A DNA stretch of 56,304 bases from an uncultured Acidimicrobiales bacterium (GTDB lineage Bacteria > Actinomycetota > Acidimicrobiia > Acidimicrobiales > SHLQ01). The position numbers and the translations under genes are program-made. The DNA lies in contig CALKGG010000029.1 in the NCBI GenBank assembly GCA_938084885.1, forward strand, positions 1 to 56,304. The letters run 5' to 3'. Of the stretch, positions 52,184-56,304 are shown piece by piece (the first letter of the stretch is position 1; each line of letters opens with the position of its first letter). The notes under the pieces were generated by a model, which did not search any database, was not told where the DNA came from, and saw only the letters and a program-made list of their open reading frames with translations.

Positions 52184-53125
52184 CTATTCGACGCTCGCTT
52201 TTCGTAATGCTCGTTGCAGGAGTCGCTGGTCGCCGAGGTAGCGGCGCAATGCGTGCTCGAGACCCTTGATTGGATAGAGGTTCTGCGGGGCGCGGTGTTC
52301 TTTGTGCGGCTCGCTCGCGTATCGGGGAAGCGTTGCTGCAACCCGATCGGCGAGTGCACGAGCAGCGACGACCGTGGCGGGCACGTCGCCCGTGGTTGTG
52401 GCGTCGACGGTGCTCGCCGACGCTTCGCAGCGAACAATCCCAGCCCAGCCGTGGGTGCGGGGCCCGGGAAGTCGCAGGTACCAGCTGAACCTGGATCCAA
52501 TCATGAACAGCGGAGAGCGTTGGCCTGCATCGAGCGTGGTGACGACCTGTTGTTGGGACGGTTCGAGGTATTGGACGTGTTGGGTTTTGATGAGCCCGAC
52601 CGTCCGTTCACCGACGCGGCCACGCAGCGGTCCGTCGAAGATGACGAGGTCGCTCGGTCCGCTCGTTGGGACGATCTGTGTTTCGAGGTGTGTCATCTCT
52701 TCGTGGATGCCGAGATAGAGGTCTTCGGGCGAACCCGTTTTGATGGCCACATGTTCGTACTCGCCAAATTCGGTGACGATCGAGGTCGCTCCGGGCGTTG
52801 GGGGAGTGAAGAACGCTCGTTTGACCGCAACATCTTGGACGGCGGCGGCGTCGCTGCTGCACGCGACCGAACCGGCAGCGACGGTGGCGCAGGTCCCTGG
52901 AAGAACTCGACCGTCATCGGTGACCCACACCCGTGCGTCGATGCGGCGCACGCCGTCGACGAAGTAGACAACGCCAACGTGGCGATGTTCGCCCGGAGTG
53001 ATCGGCGTCCACGCCTCGACCGGTGTTTCAACGTCGGCCCGCACGACGTCGGTGGACGCATCGAGTGCATCGACGTCGCCTCCTGTTCCGTACTCGGGAT
53101 CCCACGCTTCGACGGCGAACTTCAT
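52184..53125 (-). CDS. NurA-like nuclease domain protein
   Basis: This 313-residue protein has an N-terminal VVYFVDGVRRIDARVWV that resembles the first Asp motif of the NurA 5'-3' nuclease domain. Further features are DLVIFDGPLRGR near the middle, VGLIKTQHVQYL, and a C-terminal LYPIKGLEHALRRYLGD that matches the closing NurA motif. NurA normally works with the HerA helicase, but no herA is present. Here the gene overlaps sbcC by four bases. The start is the ATG before KFAVEAWDPEYG; the frame is open 39 codons upstream inside sbcC but basic and unrelated. Assignment is by motif reading only. Confidence 0.65.
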   Translation of the reverse strand: MKFAVEAWDPEYGTGGDVDALDASTDVVRADVETPVEAWTPITPGEHRHVGVVYFVDGVRRIDARVWVTDDGRVLPGTCATVAAGSVACSSDAAAVQDVAVKRAFFTPPTPGATSIVTEFGEYEHVAIKTGSPEDLYLGIHEEMTHLETQIVPTSGPSDLVIFDGPLRGRVGERTVGLIKTQHVQYLEPSQQQVVTTLDAGQRSPLFMIGSRFSWYLRLPGPRTHGWAGIVRCEASASTVDATTTGDVPATVVAARALADRVAATLPRYASEPHKEHRAPQNLYPIKGLEHALRRYLGDQRLLQRALRKASVE

Positions 53126-55551
53126 CGGGGCGCCTCGAGGAGCGCATTGCCTTGGCTCACGGTGGAGCCGGTCGGGCTGCGGGTGACGCGCACGTGTTGG
53201 GGTAGCCGGTCGGCGAGTTCGGTGATGTGGGTGACGACGCACACGAGACGGCCAGCCGCGCCGAGTTCTTCGATTGCGGTAGCGACGACGTCGAGCGTTT
53301 CGCCGTCGAGGGTGCCGAACCCTTCGTCGAGAAAGACTGATTCGGTCGGTGGGATAGACGCTGAGGCCATGTCGGTGATGCTGTCGGCGAGCGCGAGGGC
53401 CAGTGCGAGCGAGGCGAGGAACGTTTCGCCGCCTGACAGCGTGCGGGCGCTGCGCACCTCATCTGCATTGCGATGATCGAGAACGGAGAAATCGGTGCCA
53501 TCGGTCGTGAGCGAGTAGGCGCTGCTCGACAGCACCCGCAACCGTTCGCTCGCTCGTTCGGCGAGGTCGGCCATGACGTCGGCCATAAGCCATTGTTCGA
53601 AGCCCTTTGCGTTGAGCAGCTTGCCGATCTCGGCGCTGACGATCGATTCATCTTCGAGTTCGGTGATGCGAATGGCGTTGGCTGAGTCGCGTGCTTGGCG
53701 GAAGGCGGCGTCATCTCGTCGTGACGTCGCGGCGTCACGTTCGTGGGTGAGCGCGTCATACATGTCGATTGGATTGAGGTTGGCGAGGTCGATGCCGTCG
53801 AGGTGGTCGAAGGGTTTGGCGTGTTTCACCATTGCCTTTTCGGAAGTGGCGACGGCTTTGTTGTTGGCGTGTGCTTGGGCCTCGAGTTCTTTGCGGTCGA
53901 GGCTGAGTGCCGATGCGTGCGTCGAGCTCCACTCGGCGAGTTCTTCCCAGTTGTCGATGACGTTGCCGTGGCTGGGCACCGGCGGATCGAGGAACGCTAA
54001 TCGATCTCGTGCTTCGACGAAGTCTCGGCTGAGCGCCGTTGAGCGTTCGTCGAGTGCGGATCGGCGCTCGAGTGCTTCGGCGAGGGCATTGGCTGCTGCA
54101 TGTGCCGATTCGGTCGCGGCGTCGAGTCGAGCCGATGCGGCGGTTGCCTTCTTGGACATGGCTGTGAGCTGGGAGCGCGTTGGCAGGTTCGTTATCTGTT
54201 CGTTGGCTGCGTCGAGCGCGGCTCGTTCGTTGGCGGCTGCGACCTGCGCTGTGGTTGCTCTCTTATTGGTTTCTTGGGCTGCGTTGCGGGCAGCTCGCGC
54301 AGCGTCTTCGACTTGGGTCACGAGCGATTCGAGTTGGCCAACGTCGTGATCGTGGGTTTCGGGGAGTTCGCCGATGACTTGGGTACATACCGGGCAGTCG
54401 TCTCCGATCGATAGCGTCGCGGCGATGCCGGCAGCGCCGGCGGCGATCCGGGTGTGTTCGAGTTCGTCGCGTGCGTGGGCGAGGCGTTCTTCGATCGAGG
54501 TCACGGTCTTTGTGGCCTCAGCAAACGTTGCTGCTTCGGTTTTGGCTGTGGCGTCGAGGGCTGCGACCGACGCCGTCAATTCGTCGGCTCTATCCCGGAG
54601 CGCCAGTCCGGATTCGATCTCGTCGGCGCTGGTGAGGGCGTCGAGTGCCTCACGCGCGGCGGACATTTTCTGGTCGGCGAGCTGTGCGTGCTTTTCTGCC
54701 TTTGCGATGTCTTTGTCGGCTGCCGACACGTCACCGCCATATGCCAGGGCATCGTCGGGGATGGAGACCCGTTCGAGCAGTGCGAGGGCCTCGCTGATCC
54801 GGCTGAGCGCTTCGGCGGTGCCGTGTTGTGCCTCGAGGGCGTTGGCTAGTTGCGAGTGGGTTTCACCGGCGGCGATTGTGGCGGTGTCGAGTTTGGTTGC
54901 TGCCTTCGTGAGCCGTGCGAGTGCAGCGTCGGTGACGATCTCGACGTTGCCGAGCGCGGCGCGGGTGGCGTCTGCTTGGATGCGTGCTTCCTTGGCTCGT
55001 CTGCGAGCCGTAGCTCCCATCGAGGCGTAGATGTCGAGTCCGAGGAGCCGGCGAAGCAGGGTCTGGCGGTCGCCTGCGGTTTCGGTGAGGAACCGAGCGA
55101 AGTCGCCTTGGGGTAGCACGATTGTTTTGGTGAACTGGGCGAAGTTCAATCCGAGGAGCGATTCGACTTCGGTGGTGACCTCGGCGGCTGTTCCTGCGAG
55201 GACTGCTGTTTCGCCGGCGATGTCTGCTCGTTCGAGTCGGGCTTCCTTGGTGCTTGCGCCGTTGGCGGTCTTTCGAATCACCCGGACTGCGGTGTAGCGC
55301 TCGTCGCCTAGCCCGAAGTCGAGCCGCACTCGAGCTTCGGTTGACATGGTGTTGATGATCGGGGCGATCAGTTTCTCGTTCCCGTAGCGAGCGACTGACC
55401 CAAAGAGCGCGAAGGCTATGCCGTCGATGATCGACGACTTTCCGGCCCCTGTCGGTCCGGTGAAGGCCAGCAGCTCGTGGCCTTCGAACTGGACAATGGT
55501 CGGCTCCCGGAAGGCAGCGAACCCGGTCATCTCGAGACGCAGCGGCCGCAT
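53122..55551 (-). CDS. sbcC: Exonuclease SbcC (Rad50-like ATPase)
   Basis: This 809-residue SMC-like ATPase forms with SbcD a nuclease that opens hairpins and processes double-strand breaks. N-terminal Walker A GPTGAGKSS (32-40). Two long coiled-coil arms flank a zinc-hook CPVC near residue 385. The C-terminal part has the ABC signature LSGGETFLASLALALALAD near 704 and Walker B SVFLDEGFGTLD near 743. The coiled coil is shorter than in E. coli SbcC. The start shares one base with the sbcD stop; the end overlaps the NurA-like gene by four bases. Confidence 0.93.
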   Translation of the reverse strand: MRPLRLEMTGFAAFREPTIVQFEGHELLAFTGPTGAGKSSIIDGIAFALFGSVARYGNEKLIAPIINTMSTEARVRLDFGLGDERYTAVRVIRKTANGASTKEARLERADIAGETAVLAGTAAEVTTEVESLLGLNFAQFTKTIVLPQGDFARFLTETAGDRQTLLRRLLGLDIYASMGATARRRAKEARIQADATRAALGNVEIVTDAALARLTKAATKLDTATIAAGETHSQLANALEAQHGTAEALSRISEALALLERVSIPDDALAYGGDVSAADKDIAKAEKHAQLADQKMSAAREALDALTSADEIESGLALRDRADELTASVAALDATAKTEAATFAEATKTVTSIEERLAHARDELEHTRIAAGAAGIAATLSIGDDCPVCTQVIGELPETHDHDVGQLESLVTQVEDAARAARNAAQETNKRATTAQVAAANERAALDAANEQITNLPTRSQLTAMSKKATAASARLDAATESAHAAANALAEALERRSALDERSTALSRDFVEARDRLAFLDPPVPSHGNVIDNWEELAEWSSTHASALSLDRKELEAQAHANNKAVATSEKAMVKHAKPFDHLDGIDLANLNPIDMYDALTHERDAATSRRDDAAFRQARDSANAIRITELEDESIVSAEIGKLLNAKGFEQWLMADVMADLAERASERLRVLSSSAYSLTTDGTDFSVLDHRNADEVRSARTLSGGETFLASLALALALADSITDMASASIPPTESVFLDEGFGTLDGETLDVVATAIEELGAAGRLVCVVTHITELADRLPQHVRVTRSPTGSTVSQGNALLEAPR

Positions 55552-56049
55552 CAGCTATCGCCTGGCCCTGTACCACTGTGCTGTTCGATGCCACTGTGCT
55601 GTTCAGCGAGTAGGTCATCGAACATCGTGACCAGGCGGGGGTCATCGATGTTGAGATCTGCAAGGTAGGCAGCAAAGAGCTCGCCCGGCGCTCGCCCGGA
55701 CCGCAGAGTGCGACGCCGGTTCGTCTGCTCGTCGGGAACATCGATCATCACGTCGACGCATTGGGGGCCGAGGATCTCTCGAACATGATCAGCAAGGTCA
55801 GGGCGCCGCGCCTCGGTTACCCGCACTCGCAGCCAGTCGTTGCCGACCTCGGCGTTGCGAAGTTCGTCGAGCGTACCGGTGAGCGTTCGAAGGCGACGAC
55901 CCTTTTCGAGCCGCACCTTCTTTGTCTTGGCAGGAGCTCCGGCTTTGAGGTCGACGAGCGTGACCGACTTGTTTGCATCGGGGTCGCCAAAGTCGAGCTG
56001 CAGCGGTGAGCCCGAGTAGTGGATGGCAGTTGCGCCGGGGATCGACGCT
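55551..56049 (-). pseudogene. sbcD: C-terminal part of SbcD nuclease, 5' part replaced by repeat array
   Basis: The frame encodes SIPGATAIHYSGSPLQLDFG and a further about 140 residues (DLKAGAPAKTKKVRLEKG) that match the SbcD/Mre11 region after the phosphoesterase domain. The metal-binding N-terminal part (DxH, GNHD, GHxH motifs) is missing. Upstream, the frame enters the 179-bp repeat, whose translation has no SbcD character, and reaches an in-frame TAG at 56235-56237. Translation from an internal GTG at 55916 is possible but would give only 121 residues. Either sbcD is disrupted, or the window end is rearranged or misassembled. Confidence 0.7.
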
Positions 56050-56228
56050 GTTGCTCTATCGAGCGAGCCGTTTTGGCCTTGCTCACGCGGCGGGTTACCT
56101 TGATCTTTTATTGCTGACGATGCTGTTTGTTTTTCTGGGACCGGTGGCCGGACGAAGCATTCTATGACGCAGAGGGAGTCGTGTATCGGTCCCAGGTAGC
56201 CCGCAGCGTGAGCAAGGAACAGCGATAC
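56050..56228. repeat. Structured 179-bp tandem repeat, unit 1
   Basis: The unit begins GTTGCTCTATCG. It contains 23-bp inverted arms (56077-56099 and 56195-56217) that match at 21 positions. An inner pair, CTGGGACCG (56135-56143) with CGGTCCCAG (56187-56195), is stacked next to the outer arm on its right side. A 35-base, T-rich bulge (56100-56134) separates the left arms. A small hairpin GCTC-TATC-GAGC (56053-56064) lies at the unit start. No protein-coding frame is credible. The layout fits a folded RNA or a single-stranded DNA hairpin substrate. Confidence 0.75.
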
Positions 56229-56304
56229 GTTGCTCTATCGGGCGAGCCGTTTTGGCCTTGCTCACGCGGCGGGTTACCTTGATCTTTTATTGCTGATGAT
56301 GCTG
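56229..56304. repeat. Structured tandem repeat, unit 2 (cut by window end)
   Basis: The first 76 bases of a second unit agree with unit 1 at 74 positions, the two differences being a G for A at base 13 of the unit and a T for C near base 68. It directly abuts unit 1, proving a tandem array. The G for A breaks one pair in the small GCTC-TATC-GAGC hairpin. How many more units follow is unknown. Confidence 0.8.

Follow-up and report, generated by a model that had tools for sequence, protein, structure and literature searches.

A foreign array of REP-like repeats, very probably misjoined to a contig tip within sbcD of an uncultured Acidimicrobiales bacterium

The window analysed here, 56,304 nucleotides in length, corresponds to contig C29 in its entirety and belongs to a metagenome-assembled genome (MAG) of 144 contigs from an uncultured Acidimicrobiales bacterium. 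Near its end lie two genes on the minus strand. sbcC (53122..55551), a genuine host gene of 809 aa, is assigned by its position after sbcD and by its sequence in the list of open reading frames, and its ATG overlaps the stop codon of sbcD. Of sbcD itself C29 carries a genuine C-terminal part (55551..56043), recognised by an SbcD_C Pfam match and by a joined open reading frame of 400 aa described below. At the 3' end of the gene (55573-55604), a 14-bp direct repeat with a spacing of 18 bp gives rise to a duplicated EQHSG motif. The break of the sbcD frame just upstream of the HYSGSPLQ region, reported in the initial annotation, is present on C29. Homology to sbcD extends to 56043 and homology to repeat arrays of a Granulosicoccaceae bacterium starts at 56045, which sets the putative chimeric junction at 56044..56046. 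The remainder (56045..56304), the final 260 bases of C29, is a tandem array of 1.4 visible units of a ~180-bp BIME-like repeat and stops precisely at the contig end. Near the opposite end of the window a 48-bp tandem repeat is found in 1.9 copies (125-217).

The first unit of the array measures 179 bp (56050..56228, plus strand) and the second is truncated by the contig end (56229..56304, plus strand). Comparison of 56050-56125 with 56229-56304 yields 74 matches in 76 bases at a spacing of 179 bp, confirming the two near-identical adjacent units first described. The inverted outer arms are likewise there, 24 nt each and complementary at 92%; both are REP-like, the one at 56077-56100 reading AGGTAACCCGCCGCGTGAGCAAGG on the minus strand and the inverted one at 56194-56217 reading AGGTAGCCCGCAGCGTGAGCAAGG on the plus strand, and a further arm lies in the second unit (56256..56279, minus strand). 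The description of an amplified, tandem, hairpin-capable element thus stands.

The same cannot be said of the proposal that the array replaces the N-terminal part of sbcD, having inserted into the gene. We find that sbcD is not interrupted, and that the intact gene is divided between two contig tips. A search of the same MAG for the SbcD family locates the N-terminal domain, 248 aa, at the end of contig C76 (48062 bp), where it runs off the contig. C76 finishes with 36 bases that recur without mismatch at 56008..56043 of C29, and this overlap directly adjoins the array junction. Joining the two contigs restores the frame and produces an open SbcD of 400 aa, reading ...SYVALGHLHKAQKIPGATAIHYSGSPLQLDFGD..., which resembles the SbcD of relatives in the same genus and is, like theirs, uninterrupted; an intact copy is therefore present in the assembly. 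C76 is the sole assembled upstream flank of sbcD, and it passes through the site without an array. Given that the joined flanks give an open SbcD like that of the relatives, the array branches off an intact gene.

The distribution of the unit points away from its host contig. A sequence search finds the 255-bp stretch a single time in its own MAG and nowhere in 18 further genomes of the family, and the 3.37 Mb of its own genome hold no second copy of the unit, which is thus not a high-copy repeat there. A search of genome contigs for the arm pattern led to the Granulosicoccaceae MAG R3_Bin_Bin_87_1 (CALISD01), in which dozens of contigs match, and also to Planctomycetes. In CALISD01 the copies are spaced ~180-186 bp apart; a 261-bp query matches 61 times, and the best array, on contig 36, is 94% identical over 260 bp. 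Across the loci examined there were 310 HMM matches, overlapping ones counted. Among the 48 genomes searched as the family of CALISD01, full-length units are found in CALISD01 alone, and three others carry only 23-34 bp of the arm region. The arrays are intergenic, 4.0% of unit bases falling within open reading frames of at least 150 aa as compared with 75.9% of the surrounding DNA. Phage and plasmid collections gave no match, nor did viral contigs searched with the arm core. The array of the window is almost certainly foreign to its own genome, and very probably stems from a Granulosicoccaceae array or from one closely related to it.

How did a foreign array come to lie at the broken end of sbcD? 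In a sample of the tips of 60 of the 144 contigs, seven other pairs overlap by exactly 141 bp (C2/C65, C10/C80, C13/C37, C14/C79, C15/C69, C24/C25 and C31/C73). The largest default k of MEGAHIT is 141, and these overlaps bear the mark of the k-mer size with which the assembler finished, the paired contigs being likely neighbours. The tips of C29 and C76, in contrast to the seven pairs, share only 36 bp and so remained unjoined at k=141, an overlap that would fit thin coverage at this break. At the junction, the sbcD side and the array have at most ~3 bp in common. So short a homology does not allow the join to arise in the k-mer graph by itself; it requires a DNA molecule that carried the junction, most likely a chimeric library fragment and less likely a rare real insertion. 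We consider it highly probable that the last 260 bases are a foreign REP/BIME-type array and that a chimeric molecule led to their misjoining at this tip: a piece of the Granulosicoccaceae array, or of a close relative, would have been linked to the tip of C29 in the library, and the assembler would have kept this path where the true sbcD path was thinly covered. Two observations count against this reading: the best identity to a CALISD01 array is 94% and not 100%, and, with almost no homology at the junction, the molecule behind it must be a chimera of the library or else an insertion that is real but rare.

That in a subpopulation the array did insert into sbcD, with a Granulosicoccaceae neighbour as its donor and the intact gene seen through C76 retained in the other cells, is improbable. 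The junction, almost devoid of common sequence, does require that some molecule carried a join, real or chimeric, and REPs within genes, including replication and repair genes, are described for other species (PMC3733652). Against a real insertion, neither the genome nor the 18 relatives hold another copy of the unit, the MAG encodes no relative of the class-3-like transposase discussed below, and the only assembled upstream flank crosses the site without the array. We give even less credence to a rare strain of this species having a Granulosicoccaceae-type REP array in sbcD, that is, to a real transfer between phyla. A pure error of the de Bruijn graph assembler, with no chimeric molecule, would agree with the position of the array at a contig tip and with the short terminal tandem duplications in which several other tips among the 60 contigs finish; we regard it as very unlikely, the ~3 bp or less in common at the junction being far below any k-mer length used. 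From their sample-style and c_000... contig names, CALISD01 and another Granulosicoccaceae MAG, CAKZSB01, probably derive from a macroalgae study that used MEGAHIT assembly with a 2.5-kb minimum (PMC10233909). The 141-bp tip overlaps of the window's MAG and its smallest sampled contig, 2741 bp, are compatible with that study.

The array itself is of a known kind, a REP/BIME-type array, in disagreement with the initial annotation, which had found no match to REP sequences. The consensus of 93 full-length copies is ~181 bp long and contains two near-invariant blocks, CCTTGCTCACGCnGCGGGTTaCcTTGATc and ATCGAtc.caGGtAgCCCGCnGCGTGAGCAAGG, with a drifting middle between them; the conserved parts of the unit are two inverted REP-like sequences of ~22 bp. 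This inverted pairing is seen in the window, in CALISD01 and in Pirellulales, where the ~22-bp core alone is frequent, with up to 20 in 8 kb, and the ~180-bp unit was not found. Shuffled sequence contains no such core. As in REP, BIME and REPIN-RAYT systems, a short conserved sequence is present in high copy, between genes, in inverted pairs and tandem clusters and beside a Y1 HUH transposase gene. A difference is the length of the unit, ~180 bp, of which ~93 bp separate the arms. As to the 5' GTAG/GTGG head next to a hairpin that is typical of REPs, one arm has GTAG (GGTAGCCCGC) and the other GTAA (GGTAACCCGC), and the hairpin inside each core is short and imperfect (GC-GTGA-GC). PMC3733652 lists R. 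baltica among the carriers of REPs, and tandemly reiterated REP dimers with their flanking DNA are described there as well. For attC sites, CRISPR and intron ends, judged without dedicated models, we find no supporting signal.

The strong inverted arms had also been taken to indicate a functional RNA. We compared the 93 other full-length copies and the window copy with controls in which the arms were swapped between copies. When the consensus structure is imposed, 92.3% of arm cells are paired, as against 92.8 +/- 0.2% with swapped arms, and compensatory cells number 4 versus 13.5 +/- 2.9, fewer than in the controls; the inner helices do no better than shuffles. No Rfam family reached the gathering threshold. 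Sub-threshold matches were to microRNA models only and were taken as chance. What forms the dyad is a single REP present twice, not a covarying RNA. A conserved structured RNA, or an attC- or intron-like element, amplified in tandem is thus barely credible in spite of the strong predicted fold of the consensus unit and its near-invariant arms, given the deficit of compensatory cells, the lack of an Rfam family and the existence of the same ~22-bp core without the unit in Planctomycetes. A structure in single-stranded DNA is plausible, by analogy with IS200/REP systems, and the suggestion of a hairpin DNA substrate remains a plausible one, as REP-like sequences adjoin an HUH Y1 transposase gene.

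This gene is flanked on both sides by REP cores in Rhodopirellula europaea (locus L237), Neorhodopirellula pilleata (L238) and Rhodopirellula solitaria (L239). Its product in these species is a Y1 transposase of ~160 aa with an NHxH and a Y----Q motif; in R. solitaria the matched stretch ends just before the final Q. In the transposases examined, the first motif reads NHLH, NHMH or NHVH and the second YVQVAQ, YTKDAQ, YVLEAQ, YILEAQ or YASEAQ. In N. pilleata ~30 REP cores surround the transposase frame, many in tandem at 32-65-bp spacing, and the frame has an in-frame TAA near its end. Elsewhere (L243; G035 contig 196, 1-750) the C-terminal fragment of a transposase lies at the end of its contig, and after it come eight REP cores, ~80 bp apart. 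CALISD01 encodes a transposase 55% identical to one of Rhodopirellula (L240; contig 183, 3-359), truncated by the contig end before the Y motif, with a REP array on one side that has the architecture of the window's array and whose ~186-bp units begin ~390 bp away. Both transposases are accompanied by the same kind of REP core, and this, with the 55% identity, suggests either transfer between phyla or strong conservation. The core of this neighbouring array is diverged (ACTCGCTCACGCGTCGGGTTTC), which counts against our reading and makes the transposase no more than a candidate partner of the window's exact repeat family. Canonical Y1 transposases (PF01797) were rejected as partners, having no REP core nearby in CALISD01, in another Granulosicoccaceae MAG or in the MAG of the window. 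In the latter a Y1_Tnp domain is matched by three frames, 327-371 aa long (C50:32652-32981, C76:21600-21920 and C36:5699-6022), with no REP core around them.

The transposase scores 28.1 bits with the RAYT equivalog NF047646, below the cut-off of 80, and is therefore not filed as a canonical RAYT. TnpA-Y1 class 3 is described from Planctomycetes, Acidobacteria and Proteobacteria, with a Y----Q motif and genes flanked by high-copy structures having a CnGA foot (PMC6006769). The transposase shares with this class the NHxH and Y----Q motifs, occurrence in Planctomycetes and Proteobacteria and a gene beside which a single structure is repeated many times; the hairpin is preceded by CCGA both in Pirellulales and in the transposase-side array of CALISD01. 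The window copies have CCGC instead of CnGA, and the class assignment is one by motifs and published description. In the home genome, an intergenic array of ~180-bp units, each with two inverted ~22-bp REP-like sequences, would most likely present single-stranded hairpin substrates to an HUH Y1 transposase of the TnpA-Y1 class 3 or RAYT kind. To judge from gene neighbourhood and related systems, the transposase may spread the REP-like sequences, and unequal recombination or replication slippage might then multiply the units in tandem.

The analysis removes a misleading claim, namely that a palindromic insertion had abolished SbcD, and illustrates that high-copy repeats of another community member can land on contig tips. 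Were the transfer real after all, it would mean that REP arrays can travel between distant bacteria and disable a hairpin nuclease that could attack them. The analysis also draws attention to a Granulosicoccaceae bacterium whose REP-based tandem arrays have unusually long units (~180 bp) and whose class-3-like Y1 transposase resembles that of Pirellulales; this branch, which lies between the IS200 transposases and the RAYTs, has been little studied.
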